A stretch of DNA of 64,000 nt from Haloterrigena alkaliphila (GTDB taxonomy: Archaea; Halobacteriota; Halobacteria; Halobacteriales; Natrialbaceae). The notes beneath the pieces were generated by a model that worked only from the letters and a program-made list of their open reading frames with translations, did no database searches and was not told the origin of the DNA. Where the stretch lies: positions 3,100,001-3,164,000 of the forward strand of contig NZ_CP071462.1 of NCBI RefSeq assembly GCF_017352155.2. Direction: 5' to 3'. The position numbers and the translations under genes are program-made. This document shows, in pieces, positions 1-11,787 of the stretch (the first letter of the stretch is position 1; each line of letters opens with the position of its first letter).

Positions 1-2433
1 CGCCGGGGTCCCCTCGCGGGCGTCCGCCAGCAACTCCTCGACGTCGTACCCCTTGACGGCGTTCGAGTTGTCGAGGATGCGCTGGAGGTACGGCTTGGCG
101 CGGTGTTCCTCCTCGTCGATGAATTCCCAGTAGTCGGCGAAGCGGTCGTCGCCGGTCAGTTCGGCGAGCTTCTCGGCGACCCCCTTGTAGTGCTGGGTGT
201 CGTTCAGCGTGTTGTAGATCCGGTCGATCTCCGTCTCCGGCATCGTCGTGATGAACGGGTTCGTGACGGAGGCGGTGATGTCGTGGACGTGGTGTTCCGC
301 CCACGAGTCCGCCGGGAAGACGATGTCGGAGTACTCGCAGGTCATCGACCACCACCACTCGTTGGTGAAGAACGCCTCGATCTTCCCGGTGCGCAGGGCC
401 TTCTCGATGATCTTGTAGGCCCCCTTCGCGTTGCCGAGGATGGAGTTCGACCCCGACACCCAGATCGATTTCGTGGGGGTGTGCATGTGCGAGTCGCCCT
501 GGAAGTACTCGCCGTCGACCTTCAGCGGCTTGTCGAGGTTCGTGTAGAAGTGCGCCGAGTGGGCGTCCCAGCGCTTGTCGGTCCGGGCCGGCTTCTCGGG
601 ATCGAGTTCGGGGTCGAACGGGTCCTCGTTGGCGTACTGGCCGACGCCGTTGAAGTACGCCATCCGGTAGTTCCCCGAATAGCTGCCGACGTTCCCGGTC
701 CGGTAGCCGACGTTTCGCGTCAGCGACGCCAGCAGGAACGCCGCGCGGCCGTGCTGGTCGGCGTTCGCGTAGTGGTTCGGCCCCATCCCGGTCAGCAACA
801 TCGTGCTCTGTTGGTTGTCGGCGAAGTCCCGGGCCAGGTTCTCGATCGCCTGGGGGTCCGTCCCCGTGACCTCTGCGGCCGACTCGAGGTCCCAGGTCCC
901 GACCAGGTGTTCCTTGATCAGGTCGAACACCGTCCGGACTTCGACGGTCTCGCCGTCGGCGAGTTCGACCTCGAACGCGCCCTCGATCGTCGCGGGAACG
1001 TCGAAGTCGTCGCCGATGTCGTCGCGCGTGACCGGCACGAACTCGCCGTTCTCGGCGTCGTGGACGACGAAGTCGCCCCACTCGCGGCGCAGTTCTTCGG
1101 TGATGACCTGGTCGTCGATATTCGTCACGTCGACGCCGGGTCGGTCCGCGTCGTCGCCGACGGAGTTCGTCTTCTCGAGGTCCGCGGGCTCGTAGTCCTC
1201 GGAGACGTCGCTGGCCCGGAGCAGTTCGTTGTCGTCCATCCGGACCAGCAGCGGCAGGTCCGTGTGCTTGCGGACGTACGCTTCGTCGTACAGCTCCTCC
1301 TCGATGAGGACGCGGGCCGCGCCGAGGAACAGGGCCGTGTCCGACGCCGGGCGGACCGTAATGAGTTCGTCGCACTTCGAGGCCGTCGCGTTGTAGTCGG
1401 TGAAGATCCCGGTGACCTTCGACCCCTTCAGCTTGGCCTCGGTCAGCCAGTGGCAGTCGGCCATCTTCGAGGTAAGGTAGTTGATCCCGTCGAGCACGAT
1501 GTGGTCGGCGTACTCGATGCTCGCGAGGTCGAAGTCGACCGTCTGCTGGCCGGTGACCATCGTGTGCCCCGGCGGCAGGTCGGTGTGGAACGAGTAGTTG
1601 TCCAGCCCCATCGCGCCCAGCGCCTCGTCCTCGGAGACGTCGCGGACGTAGTTGTCCAGCAGCGCCATCGAGTTGGCGTTGCGGTACTGGCCGAACAGCT
1701 TGATGACGCCGAGCAGCGGCATCCCGCCGCGGAACTTCATCGTCCGGACGCCGGCGCCCTGGGTCTCCTCGACGACCCGTTCGTCGTACCCCTGCTCGAG
1801 CAGCGACTGGACCCCGCTCTCGCCGCTGTAGTGGTCGGCGAGTTCGAGGAACGCCCGGGCCGCGTACTCGTGGGCCACCTCGTGGTCGACCTCGACGAAG
1901 TCGTCCTCGCCCCGCTCGGCGTACTCCTCGGGCATCGAGCCGTCGTCGTCGCGGGGGAAGCCGTCGTCGACCCACCGTTTGAACCCCGCGCGGATCATCG
2001 GGGCCTTGACGCGGCGTTCGTTGTAGAACCGCTCGACCATCGCCAGCCCCTTGTTACAGACGCGGGGGTCCCACCGCTGGGAGGACTGGTTCCCGTCGAG
2101 GTCGGTCGCCTCGCCGTAGTTCATCGAGGGGCCCAGACGGGTGATCTGCCCGTTCTTGACGGTCGCCTCGAGGTAGCAGTTGTGGGTGTCGTTTGGCGTA
2201 CACGTGAGCATGTAGGAGTCGTCGGGCTCCCAGATCTCCCGGTACTTCTGCTCCCACTCCTCGTTGGGATACTCCTCGAGGGGGTTCATCGGCCCCTCGT
2301 CGTCGGCGGTTTCCTCGCCGGTCAGGCGCCGATAGCCGAGGAACCCGAGTCCGGACGCGCCGGCGACGCCCGCCGCCGCGGCACCGAGTTCCCGACGGGA
2401 CAGTTCCAGCCCGTCGGCCTCCTCGTCACTCAT
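1..2433 (-). CDS. NarG-like molybdopterin oxidoreductase catalytic subunit, Tat-exported (3' end outside window)
   Basis: This is the first 811 codons of a large molybdoenzyme of the type II DMSO reductase family (NarG-like); the gene continues off the left edge. The start at 2433 gives a twin-arginine signal (SRRELG near residue 12) followed by an Ala/Gly-rich hydrophobic stretch, so it should be exported folded. Residues around 275-300 carry the DLPPG motif in which NarG Asp ligates molybdenum (Asp285 here). The N-terminal iron-sulfur motif is Cys78-x3-Asp82-x3-Cys86-x39-Cys126, unlike the His/Cys/Cys/Cys set of E. coli NarG. The motif CTPNDTHNC suggests a deep archaeal NarG-like clade rather than the usual haloarchaeal NarG. 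The substrate could be nitrate, but chlorate or another oxyanion cannot be excluded. A NarH-like electron-transfer partner would be expected just outside the window. Confidence 0.88.
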   Translation of the reverse strand, partial: MSDEEADGLELSRRELGAAAAGVAGASGLGFLGYRRLTGEETADDEGPMNPLEEYPNEEWEQKYREIWEPDDSYMLTCTPNDTHNCYLEATVKNGQITRLGPSMNYGEATDLDGNQSSQRWDPRVCNKGLAMVERFYNERRVKAPMIRAGFKRWVDDGFPRDDDGSMPEEYAERGEDDFVEVDHEVAHEYAARAFLELADHYSGESGVQSLLEQGYDERVVEETQGAGVRTMKFRGGMPLLGVIKLFGQYRNANSMALLDNYVRDVSEDEALGAMGLDNYSFHTDLPPGHTMVTGQQTVDFDLASIEYADHIVLDGINYLTSKMADCHWLTEAKLKGSKVTGIFTDYNATASKCDELITVRPASDTALFLGAARVLIEEELYDEAYVRKHTDLPLLVRMDDNELLRASDVSEDYEPADLEKTNSVGDDADRPGVDVTNIDDQVITEELRREWGDFVVHDAENGEFVPVTRDDIGDDFDVPATIEGAFEVELADGETVEVRTVFDLIKEHLVGTWDLESAAEVTGTDPQAIENLARDFADNQQSTMLLTGMGPNHYANADQHGRAAFLLASLTRNVGYRTGNVGSYSGNYRMAYFNGVGQYANEDPFDPELDPEKPARTDKRWDAHSAHFYTNLDKPLKVDGEYFQGDSHMHTPTKSIWVSGSNSILGNAKGAYKIIEKALRTGKIEAFFTNEWWWSMTCEYSDIVFPADSWAEHHVHDITASVTNPFITTMPETEIDRIYNTLNDTQHYKGVAEKLAELTGDDRFADYWEFIDEEEHRAKPYLQRILDNSNAVKGYDVEELLADAREGTPA

Positions 2434-2624
2434 CGTACCACCCCGCACGCGCGGTGCGCGGATGGCCGGCCGGGGAGTCGCTCACCGACCGATTCGGACA
2501 GCGCCGTTCGAACGGTGGTCGTCGGTGTGCCATCACGGTCGACACTGCGGACTCCACTCATTAACCAGACCCGCCCGTTCCCACGCGCTGGGGACGCTAC
2601 GGCCGAAATCCTCCGAATAGTGGG

Positions 2625-2633
2625 TTTTTATAA
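2625..2633 (-). promoter_or_regulatory. TATA box, candidate promoter of the NarG-like gene
   Basis: On the minus strand this reads TTATAAAAA in the 282-bp gap between the Mrp gene and the NarG-like start. Transcription would begin near 2600, leaving a leader of about 165 nt. I looked for the NarO-type site CGAA-N4-TTCG in the gap and did not find it. Confidence 0.45.
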
Positions 2634-2715
2634 CGGGTCGGGCGACGCTCGTAACGAGACGGTCCCCCGACGAGAAAAACGGATCGGCGAGAATCCGCGT
2701 CCGGCGGCGCCGGCG

Positions 2716-4017
2716 TCAGGTCGCCGGTTCGACCGCCGACCGGCCGCCCGCCTCGAGTTCGACCAGCCAGCCGTCGTACCCCAGGTCGTCCACGGCGGTC
2801 CGCTCGAGCGAGCGTCCGTCCCGCGCGAGGCTCTCGTCAACGACTTCGACGAGGTCGTCCGGGTCGCCCCGGAGCAGCACAGACACCGGTTCGTCGGCGG
2901 CCACGCCGAACTCGGTGACGACCTGCCGGTGGCACGTCTCGGGCGGGAGCCCCCGCAGGTCGATCGCGTCCTCGGGAACCCCCGGTCCGCCCTCCGTCTC
3001 GAGGAACTCGAGCACGGTCTCGCGGAGCGCGTCGATCGCCCGTTCGCCCGTCGTCTCGGGATCGGCGACGGACCGCGCCGTCGGCTCTCGCAGCGTTGGG
3101 TCGAACGGGACTGGATCGATCTCGGCGTAGGCCGCCTCGGCCACGTCCTCGGCGAGCGCGTCCGGCCCGCCGTCGAACGGCGTCGTTTCGCCCTCGGCGG
3201 CGCCGACCATATTGGGGACGACGCCGATCGTCGGCACGTCGTTGGCCGAGTACAGCGCGGCGGTCCGCCGCGTCGCCCGTACGCACTCGTCGGTCGGCGT
3301 GGAGACCAGCAAGCCGCCGTCCAGCGGCGCCTGCTGAACGATCGTGTAGACCGCGTCGCCGATCCCCGGCGGCAGGTCCACGAGCAACACGTCCCGATCG
3401 TCCCAGGCCGCGTCCCCGAGCAGGTCCTTCACGACGTCGTGGACCATCGCGCCGCGCCACGCGACGGGGCCGTCGTCGGCGATCAACTCGATGCTGACGA
3501 CCTGAATACCGTCCTCGGTCTCGACGGGCATCGGCTTCCCCGTCGGCGACGTCTGAACCGGTCCCTCGGCCTCGAGCAGGTCCGGCGCGTCGGGCGCGTA
3601 AACGTTCGCGTCGAAGACGCCGACGTCCAGCCCCGTCTCGGCGAGCGCGCGCGCCAGCGAGGCGGTGACGGTGGTCTTGCCGACGCCGCCCTTCGCGCTG
3701 CCGACGGCGATGATCGAGTCGACGCCGGAGACCGGCAGCCCGATTTCGGGAGCGTCGGCACCGGCGGCCTCGACCCGGACGTGGACGACGCCGTCGGTCG
3801 CCAGCCCGGCCCCCCGAAGCTGATCGGTCAGTCGGTCGGCTAACACGCGATCGACCGGCCCGAAGTCGACGGTGAACGTGACGATCCCGTCCTCGACGGC
3901 GACGTCTTCGATCAACTGCTCGCCGATCGGGTCGCCGCCCATGATCTCGACTTCCCGGACGCGATCGACGACCGCCCGCCTGATCGCCTCGTCGGTCAGC
4001 GGTGTCTCGTCGGTCAT
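2716..4017 (-). CDS. Mrp/NBP35-family P-loop ATPase with DUF59 and TusA-like domains
   Basis: This 433-residue protein is an Mrp-type ATPase, a family that carries and transfers iron-sulfur clusters. The N-terminal 90 residues are a MIP18/DUF59 domain. The deviant Walker A motif (KGGVGKTT) lies near residue 105 and the VDLPPGIGD motif near residue 200. The last 80 residues resemble a TusA/DUF2249 domain with LRGLPPETC. The CxxC that normally binds the bridging cluster in Mrp/NBP35 proteins is absent: after VVPNM the sequence runs GAAEGETTPF without cysteine. I chose ATG 4017 because the region upstream is non-acidic and unlike the family. It lies upstream of the NarG-like gene on the same strand, so a role in maturing that enzyme is possible but is inference. 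Confidence 0.88.
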   Translation of the reverse strand: MTDETPLTDEAIRRAVVDRVREVEIMGGDPIGEQLIEDVAVEDGIVTFTVDFGPVDRVLADRLTDQLRGAGLATDGVVHVRVEAAGADAPEIGLPVSGVDSIIAVGSAKGGVGKTTVTASLARALAETGLDVGVFDANVYAPDAPDLLEAEGPVQTSPTGKPMPVETEDGIQVVSIELIADDGPVAWRGAMVHDVVKDLLGDAAWDDRDVLLVDLPPGIGDAVYTIVQQAPLDGGLLVSTPTDECVRATRRTAALYSANDVPTIGVVPNMVGAAEGETTPFDGGPDALAEDVAEAAYAEIDPVPFDPTLREPTARSVADPETTGERAIDALRETVLEFLETEGGPGVPEDAIDLRGLPPETCHRQVVTEFGVAADEPVSVLLRGDPDDLVEVVDESLARDGRSLERTAVDDLGYDGWLVELEAGGRSAVEPAT

Positions 4018-5306: not shown

Positions 5307-6134
5307 ATGGTACGCCTCGAGCGCATTCGGGTCCATCCGGTCGCGGCCCTCGACGGAACGTCGGTTCAGGCGGTCGACCTCGACGGGAGCGGGCTCGCGT
5401 GGGACCGTCGGTACGCGATCGTCGACCGTCCACCGGGGTCGGGATCCGACGACGGCTTCGGCGCCCAGTACGTCGACCGGAACCGCGAGCGACGAATCCA
5501 CGACCTCGAAACCGACTACGACCTCGATCGGGAGACCGTATCGGTCCGCGAGAGCGGGGCCGACGAAACTCACACCTTCCACCTCGAACTCGACCGGGAC
5601 TGTTTCGCCTCGTGGCTCTCGGACTACCTCGGCTACCCGGTCGAACTCGTCCGTCTCGACGAGGCGTCACTACCGGGGGACGCGGCGAGCCCTGAGGCGA
5701 CGATCGTCGGCGACGCCACGCTCGAGAGGGTCGCCTCGTGGGTCGACGGGCTCGACGTCGAGGCGCTGTGTCGGCGACTCCGCCCGAATCTCGTCGTCGG
5801 TGACGCCCCCGCGTTCTGGGAGGATCGGCTCTACGACGCGTCCGAACGCGTCGTCCCCGTCGATATCGGTTCGGCAACGCTGCTGGGTATCGGCCCCTGT
5901 CCCGTCCCGCCGGACGACGCGGATATCGGGCGGGAGAGCGATCGGTTTCGGGAGATGATCGCCGAGCGACGGCAGGCGACGCTCCCCGAGTGGGCCCACG
6001 AGGCGCGATTCGATCACTACGCCCGTCTCACGGCCGAGGCGCTCGTCTCCGACTCCTCGCGGGGGGAGACCCTCTCCGTGGGCGATACGGTCTCCGTGGG
6101 GAGGGCGGTCACCGTTCCGGATCCGGCCGACTGA
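5307..6134 (+). CDS. MOSC domain-containing protein
   Basis: This 275-residue protein has the MOSC N-terminal beta-barrel (IRVHPVAALDG at residues 7-17) and a C-terminal MOSC domain (RLRPNLVVGDAPAFWE near residue 155, then GPCPVPPDDADIG near residue 197 with the conserved Cys, then RRQATLPEWA). MOSC proteins bind a molybdenum cofactor or transfer sulfur from pyridoxal enzymes; related bacterial proteins reduce N-hydroxylated compounds. No partner gene is adjacent. Start 5307 sits about 27 nt after a weak TAAG-type box, consistent with leaderless transcription. Confidence 0.85.
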   Translation: MVRLERIRVHPVAALDGTSVQAVDLDGSGLAWDRRYAIVDRPPGSGSDDGFGAQYVDRNRERRIHDLETDYDLDRETVSVRESGADETHTFHLELDRDCFASWLSDYLGYPVELVRLDEASLPGDAASPEATIVGDATLERVASWVDGLDVEALCRRLRPNLVVGDAPAFWEDRLYDASERVVPVDIGSATLLGIGPCPVPPDDADIGRESDRFREMIAERRQATLPEWAHEARFDHYARLTAEALVSDSSRGETLSVGDTVSVGRAVTVPDPAD

Positions 6135-6311: not shown

Positions 6312-9300
6312 ATGAACCAGGGTCTCGACATCGGACCGGGGACGATCAGGGTGGCCGCGGAGACGACGGCCGGAGACGCGATCGAGTCAGTGGCGTCGGT
6401 CGTCGTTCCGATTGACGACGCGACGCTCGAGTCGGCAGTCGACTCGCCGGGGGACGAACTGATCGTCGAGCGAGACGGCACGACGTACGCGGTCGGGCCG
6501 ACGGCCGAGCGCGTCGCCGACGCCGCGGACGAGACACCTACCTCGCTCTTCTCGAACGGCGTCCTCGCAGTCGACGGCTACGTCGAACCCGCATTCGAGG
6601 CGCTCGTCGACCGCGTGCTCGACGACGACGCACCGGCCGAACGGCTCTGCTACACGACGCCGGGATCGCTGATCGGCGCCGCGGAGCCGACCGACGCGCA
6701 CCGCGAGACGCTCGAGTCGGTGTTGGCCGATCGCGGGGTCGACGCGACCCCGATCAGCCGGGGCTTCGCCGTCGTCTACGACCAGCTCGCGGAGGACAAC
6801 TACACCGGACTGGGGATCAACGTCGGAACGCAGACGACCAGCGTCGCGCTGGTCTACTACGGCGTCCCCGCGCTGGCCTTCTCGCTCGCGAAGGGCCGCG
6901 AGTGGGTCGTCGACCGAGCGGCCGACGAGACCGGCCGGGAGCCGGCGGCGGTCGCCGACGTGCTCGCGGAGTTCACGCTGGATCCCGACGCGGCCTCGGG
7001 CGAGATCGAGAGCGCGCTGGCGGGGGCCTACGACGCGCTGATCGGCGACCTCGCGGACGCGATCGCGGCCGAAGCCGACGAGAACGACGTCCAGCAGGGG
7101 CTCGCCGTCCCGATCGCGATCGCCGGATCGGGGGCGCTCGAGGGCCTCGAGTACCTGCTGGGCGGCCGGTTCGACGCGGCGCCGCTGCCGTTTTCGATCC
7201 GCGGCGTGCGTCTCGCGGACGATCCCGCAGCCTGCGCCGCCAGAGGGGCGCTGGCGGCAGCAGCGGACGACGTCGACGCCTACGAGGACGTCACCTGGAA
7301 CGGAGATGCGAGCGACGGCGACGACGCGGTGACCGATGCGGCGACCGGCGCAACCGCCGACGCGATCGAAGCAAGCGATGCAGGCGACGGAACGTCACTC
7401 TCGTTCGACGCGCTCGAGGGCGCCGACGCGGACCACGAGCGCGCGGACGACGCTATCGATCAGTTGTTCGACCGGCTGGCCACCCGCGACGACGAGATCC
7501 AGTCGGTCCGGGCCGACCTCGAGTCGGTCCTCGAGGACGTCGAGTACGTCGAAGAGCGGGCCGCCGACGCCGAGACCGTCGCGGATCTCGACGAGCGACT
7601 CGAGGCGTTCGCCGACGACCTGCAGGACCTCGAAGCCGAGAGCGAGACCCACGCCAGCGAGGGGACGGTCGACGACCTCGAGGGCGACCTCGACTCGCTG
7701 TCGTCGGCCTTCGATGCGCTGGAGGACGATATCGACGGTCTCGAGACCGATCTGTCCGCGGACCTGGAGACGCTCGAGGACGACGTCGACGGCCTCGAGG
7801 CGGATCTGGCGGCGGACATCGACGCCCTCGCCGAGAGCACGGCGGACGAACGCGGGGCTCTCGAGGACCGTCTGGGCGCCCTGTCCGACGAACTCGAGAC
7901 GGTGGCCGACCGCGCGGAGACCCTCGACGATCGGACGGAGACGCTGGACGACCGTCTCGAGACGCTCCGAAGCGACCTGAGCGATCTGGACGCCGAGACC
8001 GCGGCGGCGGACGACCTCGAGGTCGTCACGGAGACGGTCTCAGGACTCGAGGAGCGCCTCGAAACGATCGACGACGACGTCGACCGAATCGGGACTCGCG
8101 TCGACGACCTCGGCGACCGGCTCGAGGCGCGGATCGACGCCGCCGAGGAAACTGCCGCCGCCGACGTCGAGCGGGTCGAAGCGGCGGTCGACGAGGATTT
8201 GGAGCGCGTCGAAACGACGCTCGAGGCGGAGATCGACGCCCTCGAAGCCGACCTCGAGTCGGTCACGGACCGAATCGAGGACGTCGACGAGCAGTGCGCG
8301 ACCGTCGACGACCGACTCGACGTGGAACTCGCGGCCGTTACCGATCGTCTCGACGACGAACTCGCGGCGGTCGACGATCGGTTCGAGTCCATCGACGAAC
8401 GGCTCGACGCGACCGCTGCGGACCTCGAAAACAGTCTCGCCGGCGTTCGGGACGCGATCGACGATCTCGAGTCGACGGCCGCCGAGGGCGAGCGAGTCGC
8501 CGCCGTCGAAGACGACCTCGCGGCCCTCGAGACCGAGTTCGACGACCTCCGGGACACCCTCGACGCCGTTTCGGAGACGGCGTCCGACCTCGAGACGCGA
8601 GCGGCCACCGCGGAGCGGGTCGACGACCTCGCGGCCGACCTCCAATCGGAGCTGACGGACGAAACCGACGCGCTCGAGACGCGGCTCGAATCGGTGGACG
8701 AGCGAGCTACGACCGTCGACGACCGGCTCGAGGACGTCGTCGAGGCCGTGGAGTCGGACGTCGACCGGATCGACGAGACCGTCTCCGATCTCGACGCCCG
8801 ACTCGAGGCGCTGGACGAGACGTCGCCCGCTGGGGAGCCCGTCGCATCGCTCCGGGACGAACTCGCCGCCCTCGAGGAGGAGCTGGCGTCGCTCGAGGCG
8901 GCCCACGACGAGACCGCCGAGACGATCGCGACGCTGGAGACCGATCTCGAGGGGACGGCGGACGCTGCCCTCGCGGACCGCGTCGACACCGTGGCTGCTC
9001 GCGTCGACGAGGAGGCGAGTCGGACGGACGAACTGGCGACCGGCGTCGACCGGATCGACGATCTCGCCGGCCGCCTCGACGACCTCGCCGACCGCACCGA
9101 TCGACTCGACGAGCGACTGAGCGATCACGACTCCCGATTCGAGGGGCAGGCCGAGACGCTGGCGGAACAGCGCGCGCGTCTCGAGTCGGTCGCCGCGGAG
9201 GTCGACGATCTCGCGGCGTCCGTCGAGACGCCGACCGACGGCTCGACGGTCGATTCTGTCACGACGGAACTCGAACAAGTCGACGAGCGTCTGGACGCGC

Positions 9301-9515
9301 TCGAGTCGGCGGGCGGACCAGAATCGAGCGAAGACGGCGATGCCGACGAAGCGAGCGACGGATCGAACGTCGTTGTCCCGCTCGCTGCCGGCGGCGGCGG
9401 TGCCGGCGTCGTCGCCGGCGGAACCGTCGCCCTCGCCGGCGACGGATCGATCGGCGCCGTCGCGGTCGTCATCGGCCTGCTCCTGCTCGGTGCCGCGATC
9501 GCCGTCGGGCGGTGA
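6312..9515 (+). CDS. Actin-like ATPase domain fused to a long coiled coil and C-terminal membrane helix
   Basis: This 1067-residue protein has three parts. Residues 1 to about 325 look like an actin/MreB/ParM-fold ATPase: a phosphate-1 motif LDIGPGTIRVA at the N-terminus, a phosphate-2 motif LGINVGTQTTSVAL at about 166-179, and an adenosine-type motif AIAGSGALEGLEYLLGG at about 269-285. After an acidic linker, residues about 375-1010 form a nearly unbroken Leu/Glu/Asp/Arg heptad coiled coil with units such as DDRLETL and DDLAADL. The end is a Gly/Ala-rich segment and a hydrophobic helix (about 1045-1065, AVVIGLLLLGAAIAVGR). The layout suggests a membrane-tethered cytoskeletal or scaffold protein. 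I do not recognise a named family. Relation to haloarchaeal actins such as salactin or volactin is inference. Confidence 0.85.
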   Translation: MNQGLDIGPGTIRVAAETTAGDAIESVASVVVPIDDATLESAVDSPGDELIVERDGTTYAVGPTAERVADAADETPTSLFSNGVLAVDGYVEPAFEALVDRVLDDDAPAERLCYTTPGSLIGAAEPTDAHRETLESVLADRGVDATPISRGFAVVYDQLAEDNYTGLGINVGTQTTSVALVYYGVPALAFSLAKGREWVVDRAADETGREPAAVADVLAEFTLDPDAASGEIESALAGAYDALIGDLADAIAAEADENDVQQGLAVPIAIAGSGALEGLEYLLGGRFDAAPLPFSIRGVRLADDPAACAARGALAAAADDVDAYEDVTWNGDASDGDDAVTDAATGATADAIEASDAGDGTSLSFDALEGADADHERADDAIDQLFDRLATRDDEIQSVRADLESVLEDVEYVEERAADAETVADLDERLEAFADDLQDLEAESETHASEGTVDDLEGDLDSLSSAFDALEDDIDGLETDLSADLETLEDDVDGLEADLAADIDALAESTADERGALEDRLGALSDELETVADRAETLDDRTETLDDRLETLRSDLSDLDAETAAADDLEVVTETVSGLEERLETIDDDVDRIGTRVDDLGDRLEARIDAAEETAAADVERVEAAVDEDLERVETTLEAEIDALEADLESVTDRIEDVDEQCATVDDRLDVELAAVTDRLDDELAAVDDRFESIDERLDATAADLENSLAGVRDAIDDLESTAAEGERVAAVEDDLAALETEFDDLRDTLDAVSETASDLETRAATAERVDDLAADLQSELTDETDALETRLESVDERATTVDDRLEDVVEAVESDVDRIDETVSDLDARLEALDETSPAGEPVASLRDELAALEEELASLEAAHDETAETIATLETDLEGTADAALADRVDTVAARVDEEASRTDELATGVDRIDDLAGRLDDLADRTDRLDERLSDHDSRFEGQAETLAEQRARLESVAAEVDDLAASVETPTDGSTVDSVTTELEQVDERLDALESAGGPESSEDGDADEASDGSNVVVPLAAGGGGAGVVAGGTVALAGDGSIGAVAVVIGLLLLGAAIAVGR

Positions 9516-9629
9516 ATCGCGGTCGACGGGCGCGGTCCGAACGATCGAATCCACGACTCCGTGGTCGACGAACGAACGGAAAACCGATTGCCGCTGCTCC
9601 CCGACGCGGGCGCGGTGACGACGACTCGA

Positions 9630-9761
9630 CTACTCCCGGATCAGCTCGACGTTTCGCATCTCGCCCCCGCATCGCCGACAGGTGCTGACGAACGCGTCCG
9701 TGACGGTTTCACGGCGGCCACACGCGACGCACTCGTACTCGCGCGGTTCGGTGACTGACAT
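9630..9761 (-). CDS. Zinc-ribbon microprotein (rubrerythrin-like domain)
   Basis: This 43-residue protein has two zinc-knuckle pairs (YECVACGRRE and STCRRCGGE), the layout of the small haloarchaeal proteins often described as having a rubrerythrin-like domain. Its function is unknown. A similar microprotein on the opposite strand lies at 10513-10653. The ATG at 9761 follows an AGTTAACA-type box at about the leaderless distance. Confidence 0.75.
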   Translation of the reverse strand: MSVTEPREYECVACGRRETVTDAFVSTCRRCGGEMRNVELIRE

Positions 9762-10668: not shown

Positions 10669-10761
10669 CAGCCGCGGTCGCTCGGAGTGCGGCGGCCGCG
10701 GTCGCTCGGAGTGCGGCGGCCGCGGTCACTCGAAGTCCGGAGGCGGTCACTCGAAGTCCGG
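10669..10761. repeat. Tandem repeat duplicating the 3' end of the 10747 gene, including its stop codon
   Basis: Read on the minus strand, the last codons of the 10747-11211 gene (Pro-Asp-Phe-Glu-stop plus two codons, 21 bp) are followed by a 24-bp near-copy with the same stop. Two further 24-bp copies follow in which GAGTGA has become GAGCGA, and a degenerate fifth copy lies toward 10645. All units stay in frame with the gene. Confidence 0.85.
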
Positions 10762-11211
10762 CAGATCCTCCGGCGGTTCGTACTCGGCTTCCCAGTCGAC
10801 GTACTCCTCTTTGAGCGTCACCGAGACGATCTGGCCGAACTCGGTCAGTTCGGCGTTGATCGAGGAGACGGTCCCCCACGTATCGAGTTCGGGGTGGTAC
10901 TCGCGGGCCTGCCAGTCCTCGGGGATCCCGGGCGCGTGGTAGCCGACTCTGTCGGCGAAATCGTCCCAGAAGAAGTCGAACCCCGCGAAGAGATCTAGAT
11001 CCCTGGCGATTCCGTACTCCCGTTCCTCGAGGTCGGTATCCTCGCGCCACTCGTCGAACGCTTCCTCCCAGGCGCCTTCCTCGAGGAACGCCTGGAGTTC
11101 CTCGCGGCGGTAGTCGACGTCGCCGTCGGCGCTGATCGTCGCGTCCTCGTACTCGTTGGGGTCGACGAAGTCCAGTTCCGGCGGGTCGGGCGCCTCGACC
11201 TCGAGTGTCAT
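10747..11211 (-). CDS. Conserved haloarchaeal acidic protein, tandem paralog A
   Basis: This 154-residue highly acidic protein begins MTLEVEAPDPP and contains LQAFLEEGAWEEAFDEWRED, DLFAGFDFFWDDFADRVGYH and a C-terminal helix-rich region. I do not recognise a known domain. The gene at 11338-11787 has the same order of motifs, so the two are tandem duplicates on the same strand. The start at 11211 is shared in context with the paralog (both begin MTL[ED][VI]E). Its 3' end is tandemly duplicated. Confidence 0.8.
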   Translation of the reverse strand: MTLEVEAPDPPELDFVDPNEYEDATISADGDVDYRREELQAFLEEGAWEEAFDEWREDTDLEEREYGIARDLDLFAGFDFFWDDFADRVGYHAPGIPEDWQAREYHPELDTWGTVSSINAELTEFGQIVSVTLKEEYVDWEAEYEPPEDLPDFE

Positions 11212-11337
11212 AGTCGAGGGTAGGACGGGTCGGCGGATAAGAATTCCCACCTCGCGGTCGCCGGACCGCCGACGGACGGTCGCAGGCCCGGTCGGTCGGA
11301 CGGCTCCGTTCGCGCCGCCGCGAGGATCCGGGGAGCC

Positions 11338-11787
11338 CTACTCCCAGTCGTAGCCGAATTCCTCGCTCCCGCGGTGGATGTAGTCGCTCTCGAGCACTTC
11401 GCTGACCGTCCGCGCGAGGTCGTCCAGCGCCTCTTCGATGTCGTCGATATCGTGGGCGTCGATGTCCTCGCGAGCGTCGGTCAGGTCGGCCGGAATCGGC
11501 GGAACGCGGTAGCCGACGTCCCCTGCGGCCCGGTTCCAGTAGAAGTCGAGTTCGTCGAGCAGCCCCCGCTCCCGGACGGCCCGGAACTCGCCTTCGTTCA
11601 GGTAGGTGTCGTCGGCCCACTCGTCGAACGCGTCCTCCCAGGCGCCCGCCTCGAGGAGGCCGGCGAGTTCGTCCCGGCGCGTGTCGTCTCCGGTCCGCTC
11701 CTCCGGTTCCTCGACGGCGTCGTAGTCGCCCGGATCCTCCGGCCCTCGAAGCGTCGGCGGCTCCGGAATCTCGATGTCGAGCGTCAT
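11338..11787 (-). CDS. Conserved haloarchaeal acidic protein, tandem paralog B
   Basis: This 149-residue paralog of the 10747 gene has MTLDIEIPEPP at the start, then LAGLLEAGAWEDAFDEWADD, then LDELDFYWNRAAGDVGYRVP and a C-terminal segment ending SDYIHRGSEEFGYDWE. The aligned blocks GAWE-AFDEW and FDF/DFYW-VGY define the family. It has no cysteine motif, signal peptide or membrane segment, so it is probably cytosolic. The function is unknown. Confidence 0.8.
   Translation of the reverse strand: MTLDIEIPEPPTLRGPEDPGDYDAVEEPEERTGDDTRRDELAGLLEAGAWEDAFDEWADDTYLNEGEFRAVRERGLLDELDFYWNRAAGDVGYRVPPIPADLTDAREDIDAHDIDDIEEALDDLARTVSEVLESDYIHRGSEEFGYDWE

Follow-up and report, generated by a model that had tools for sequence, protein, structure and literature searches.

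A volactin-related actin-fold head joined to a long coiled coil and a predicted membrane tail in Haloterrigena alkaliphila

The window analyzed here, a stretch of 64,000 nucleotides from Haloterrigena alkaliphila, carries on its forward strand (6312..9515) one open reading frame for a protein of 1067 amino acids, which we call long volactin. The protein begins with an actin-fold head (residues 1-317, 6312..7262), continues through an acidic, poorly structured linker (residues 318-378, 7263..7445; AF2 pLDDT about 30) with a conserved LSFD near its end that is also seen in homologues, and then forms a helical coiled coil (residues 381-1000, 7452..9311) before ending in a hydrophobic tail. An earlier note on this DNA had proposed a union of three such parts in one gene, and this architecture is supported. 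The same layout is common to 52 homologues from the family of the window's genome (Natrialbaceae) and to three read from other families, and by sequence criteria the gene is maintained. Because the N-terminal M..GLDIG aligns with the starts of the 52 homologues, the ATG is accepted as the start. Complete long volactins range from 575 to 1263 amino acids, and the length of the coil varies widely.

Shadow reading frames of 504-928 amino acids over the coil were rejected as genes, being products of GC-rich repetitive codons. Very long frames of this kind, at 6902-9688 (+), 7460-9097 (-), 8040-9554 (-) and 103-3843 (+), lie in other frames over GC-rich genes and look like codon-composition artefacts.

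The head belongs to a described family. It matches the Pfam Volactin profile PF25216 at 412 bits (E 2.9e-123), and the whole protein matches at 407 bits over profile positions 1-321 of 321, above the curated cut-off of 35 bits; by this match, long volactin is a paralogue of volactin, an actin already known from haloarchaea. With only six sequences to draw on, AF2 modeled the head poorly (mean pLDDT 55.6), and its full-length model is also of low confidence (54.0). When the low-confidence head model was compared with the PDB by Foldseek, the top matches were MreB (E 1.8e-7), ParM, actin, AlfA and crenactin. Sequence methods reach less far: a PDB sequence search with the head alone gave no match, a PDB profile search gave only a weak match to FtsA (E 0.16), and the MreB profile PF06723 did not match the head at E values up to 1. 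Alignment of the head with Escherichia coli MreB by hhalign is likewise weak (probability 1.5-3%), yet the Glu and phosphate-2 motifs fall in register. The earlier assignment to the actin superfamily, made from motifs read by eye, is thus upheld by the family profile and by a model that, weak as it is, gave no fold unlike actin; the kinship with volactin, formerly a matter of inference, now has a profile match behind it. The remark that this is not a described haloarchaeal cytoskeletal protein holds, within the literature searched, if it is applied to the full-length protein, but not if it is applied to the head.

How does the long form compare with known systems? Volactin (HVO_2015) of Haloferax volcanii is reported to form dynamic filaments whose tips are bound to the membrane and to affect the rod-to-disk transition (PMC10869688), and no other actin homologue is said to have been identified in that organism (PMC7617734). 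In its accessible text, the account of tip contact names no membrane anchor for volactin (PMC10869688). The long form resembles volactin (VolA, PF25216) in the full-length family match of its head and in its actin superfamily fold. Volactin, however, consists of one domain of some 340 amino acids, and the long form adds a coil and a membrane tail to reach 1067; moreover, twelve aligned volactin copies are 93-99% identical, whereas the long head is about 34% identical to volactin. MreB is the top fold match of the head but has no long coil and does not end in a hydrophobic tail. Compared by description only, salactin of Halobacterium salinarum is another haloarchaeal actin-fold protein and forms dynamic filaments; unlike long volactin, it is said to have a charged tail at its N-terminus and neither coil nor anchor.

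Two other systems bring in coiled coils. In the arcadin-4/crenactin system an archaeal actin is paired with a coiled-coil protein, but the two are encoded by separate genes, and the arcadin-4 profile scores only 24 bits against long volactin (cut-off 860), a match that reflects generic coil. Crescentin-type proteins share the long coiled coil and a possible scaffold role but lack an actin head, and the crescentin rod profile PF19220 also scores 24 bits, under its cut-off of 100. No description of a volactin-coiled-coil fusion was found in the openly accessible journal papers searched. As far as this literature shows, the volactin family itself is already known, and a volactin-type head on a coil and membrane tail appears to be new.

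The coiled coil is defined by hydrophobic periodicity and by predicted helices. Periodicity in the heptad range exceeded that of shuffled sequences (p<0.05) in 41 of 42 scoring windows over residues 375-1005, whereas 3 of 20 head windows passed this test; most of the homologues tested show the periodicity too, L118 (13/23) and L124 (12/17) most weakly. A coiled coil of about 635 residues had been proposed, and a helical coil from about residue 379 to 1000 is borne out, with no failure of the signal across 375-1010. AF2 places helices over residues 381-1000 with about six breaks, near 420-425, 443-449, 564-578, 721-728, 835-840 and 972-976. Several of these breaks carry a similar sequence, T/S-x-A-x-G-x-x-V-x-x-L, and the rod therefore looks jointed. 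About 570 helical residues at 0.15 nm each correspond to a length of about 85 nm, provided that the helices stack end to end; under that proviso the long rod of the earlier note stands, at slightly less than its 90 nm. Neither the length nor the sequence of the coil is well conserved among long volactins.

The coil does begin with a conserved motif, DDAIDQLFDRLATRDDEI (residues 379-396, 7446..7499, +), for which the consensus in Natrialbaceae is DDAIDQLFDRLxxRDEEI; most members of the family have the LFDRL core. When a profile of this motif was run over 31 related genomes, all strong matches lay within long volactins and the others were marginal.

The tail consists of two hydrophobic segments, aligned across 52 homologues. 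The first, VVVPLAAGGGGAGVVAGGTVALA (residues 1020-1042, 9369..9437, +), is Gly-rich (AGGGGAGVVAGG; AGGGGAGVVAG in the family), and the second and more hydrophobic one, IGAVAVVIGLLLLGAAIAVG (residues 1047-1066, 9450..9509, +), has a Kyte-Doolittle value of 2.81, an AF2 helix at 1048-1066 and a predicted membrane helix. A C-terminal hydrophobic segment is present in 52 of 53 homologues, the lone exception running off its contig, and a tail profile run over the 31 related genomes found only long volactins plus one contig-end fragment. The base-of-coil motif and the two-segment tail are specific to the long volactin family. The hydrophobic anchor of the earlier note is thus retained, not as a single helix but as a conserved pair of segments. 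A hairpin would agree with the short loop between the segments, the acidic flank ahead of the tail and the Arg that often ends the protein, and we infer that both ends would lie in the cytoplasm.

The nucleotide site of the head is preserved in part. The phosphate-1 motif LDIGPG (residues 5-10, 6324..6341, +) keeps its Asp6 in 50 of 53 long forms, and the adenosine-site motif IAGSGA (residues 270-275, 7119..7136, +) contains an invariant Gly272. The other elements diverge: at the presumed catalytic position stands Arg150 (6759..6761, +), placed against MreB by weak alignment and motif spacing, and the phosphate-2 loop reads GINVGTQTT (residues 168-176, 6813..6839, +), in contrast to the Glu and the GISFGAGMT of volactin. 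Of the three motifs of the actin superfamily that had been read in this head, the first and the last therefore stand and the second is degenerate. The presumed catalytic Glu is found in 30 of 30 short volactins and in a phage homologue but in none of the 53 long forms of the family, which have Lys (19), Thr (15), Arg (13) or others (Gln, Ser, Ala) there; three long forms of other families have Arg in two cases and, in the third, Pro with a Glu one place earlier. In a weak alignment, the Glu of the short-volactin NEGM falls in register with the second Glu of the MreB EEPM, which we take to be the catalytic residue. The GISFGAGMT loop is common to all short forms, whereas long forms vary at positions 170, 172, 173 and 174.

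The divergence extends over the whole head. Among 286 positions that are invariant in short volactin, 129 are kept in fewer than 10% of long forms and 37 in at least 90%. Over 171 genome pairs, mean head identity is 59% for the long and 97% for the short form, with a median distance ratio of 15.7-fold. Nevertheless dN/dS values of 0.14-0.51 for the head and 0.25-0.57 for the remainder of the protein indicate purifying selection on head and coil, and the head has the lower value in 8 of 9 compared pairs. Nucleotide binding may be conserved in the long form. Given the degenerate phosphate-2 loop and the loss of the Glu and of so many invariant positions, the long form has probably kept neither nucleotide hydrolysis nor the filament lattice of volactin, and the idea that the actin domain itself polymerizes is weakened.

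In a sample of 292 haloarchaeal genomes, the long form occurs in at least 58, a lower bound because second matches outside Natrialbaceae were checked in selected genomes only; 53 belong to Natrialbaceae (with Natronorubrum, Haloterrigena and Natronosalvus among the genera) and five to two other families. Confinement to the family of the window's genome was rejected on account of these five, whose frames run to 780-909 amino acids; the three that were read share the head, the coil and the hydrophobic tail, whereas the QLFDRL motif is missing from them. Short volactin is present in all 58 genomes with a long form, and, among the matches listed, 74 of 74 Natrialbaceae genomes have the short form and 53 also the long. 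The genome of the window encodes a short volactin of 341 amino acids elsewhere, and by sequence comparison that gene, not the long form, is its true volactin (VolA) orthologue.

In a tree of 29 long heads, 7 short volactins and 1 phage homologue, the long forms lie on one side of a branch with support 99/97; some branches are long, and the placement of single rows is unsure. Because the phage homologue groups among the short forms and shares the Glu with them, the loss of that residue looks derived, and the long form itself would be derived, having arisen once, if the phage protein is a fair outgroup. The homologue (L170:6001-7020; LR756511.1, an uncultured phage of 595 kb in a very large unannotated record) is a stand-alone protein of 339 amino acids, 36% identical to short volactin, with the catalytic-position Glu and a GISFGAGM loop. 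A mobile origin was rejected: the tblastn matches at E 1e-5 on plasmids (four records, all about 33% identical) and on phages (a single record) include nothing that closely resembles the long form.

The neighborhood offers no partner. A MOSC-domain gene lies upstream (5307..6134, +; Pfam MOSC_N), as it does at 22 of the 52 long volactin loci surveyed, and a downstream string of genes recurs in up to 27 loci with no cytoskeletal gene in it; both are taken as plain synteny, the MOSC gene is presumed to have no share in the function, and an operon or conserved partner gene was rejected. The same survey of 52 loci found no conserved neighborhood shared between long and short volactin. Two adjacent genes of the window (10747-11250 and 11338-11787, -) encode small acidic proteins without a Pfam match, the first 75-92% identical in 27 related loci.

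What, then, might the protein do? The reading that we prefer, tentatively and with real doubt, is that the whole chain acts as a membrane-anchored, hydrolysis-impaired tether or cap, with canonical volactin its likeliest partner. The head would be a passive binding module that remains cytoplasmic. It would bind nucleotide weakly or without hydrolysis because the presumed catalytic Glu is gone, and would most likely contact the end or the side of canonical volactin filaments. The coil would dimerize or form a higher oligomer, serving as a flexible, jointed spacer of up to about 85 nm, a role that its wide variation in length fits; the conserved motif at its base, beside the acidic linker, is docking-like; and the tail would insert into the membrane as a hairpin, so that the volactin cytoskeleton and the membrane would be linked. 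The filament-to-membrane link of the earlier note thus remains the best reading, with the head as tether or cap more likely than as filament subunit. Membrane contact of this cytoskeleton is real insofar as volactin tips are reported to bind the membrane in Haloferax (PMC10869688). Haloferax volactin, however, touches the membrane as the sole actin homologue reported to be identified there (PMC7617734), so that tip anchoring there does not need the long form. Also against contact with volactin, just 37 of the 286 short-invariant positions have been retained by 90% or more of the long forms, and the co-occurrence of the two forms is confounded by ancestry, since every sampled Natrialbaceae genome has the short form.

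Perhaps the coil is instead the working part, an intermediate-filament-like or SMC-like scaffold beneath the membrane, with the degenerate head no more than a cap that serves assembly or regulation. No other part of the protein is as large as the coil, and purifying selection also acts beyond the head, which for its part lacks the presumed catalytic Glu and most volactin-invariant positions; the coil-only matches all fall well below their cut-offs (ASRP 101 of 300 bits, SMC 83 of 567, Rad50 likewise), so that the similarity is generic. We consider this rather unlikely, however: every member retains the head, which has the lower dN/dS in nearly all pairs, and the coil is poorly conserved in length and sequence. 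It is less probable still that the head tethers some other partner to the membrane, such as chromosome-bound or division proteins; its strong differences from volactin and the effect of salactin, another haloarchaeal actin, on DNA distribution (PMC10746226) would suit such a role, but no conserved gene neighbor points to such a partner. That the head still binds nucleotide and polymerizes, the protein itself making an actin filament on the membrane from which the coils project, has in its favor Asp6 and Gly272 in nearly all members and the dynamic filaments reported for the founding family member in vivo (PMC10869688), but seems equally improbable given the missing Glu (53/53), the degenerate phosphate-2 loop, a divergence about 15-fold faster than that of the polymerizing paralogue and a large coil on each subunit.

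If the tether or cap reading is extended, haloarchaea of at least three families could have a two-component actin system, in which a near-invariant polymerizing volactin is joined by a fast-evolving, hydrolysis-impaired, membrane-anchored relative; bound to the ends of the filaments, this relative would fix how far they lie from the membrane by means of its jointed coil. This broader proposal is doubtful, more so than the tether or cap itself. Eukaryotic actin-related proteins arose by a similar duplication and divergence from actin, and the two-component system, if true, would be an archaeal parallel of them combined with a tether. Apart from that proposal, short and long volactin are a clear archaeal case of an actin that has duplicated, one copy remaining a conserved polymer form and the other diverging, with the presumed catalytic residue gone, and long volactin is a direct, testable candidate for the attachment factor of volactin in the lineages that carry it.

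Two further observations concern volactin loci elsewhere. In one genome a volactin gene (G106:C4:12424-13352) is split over two frames and is probably a pseudogene, and the same genome also has intact copies. About 5 kb from the short volactin, L129:15035-16861 encodes an acidic protein of 608 amino acids with a C-terminal coiled coil; of five other genomes checked, three have relatives of its gene near their short volactin.
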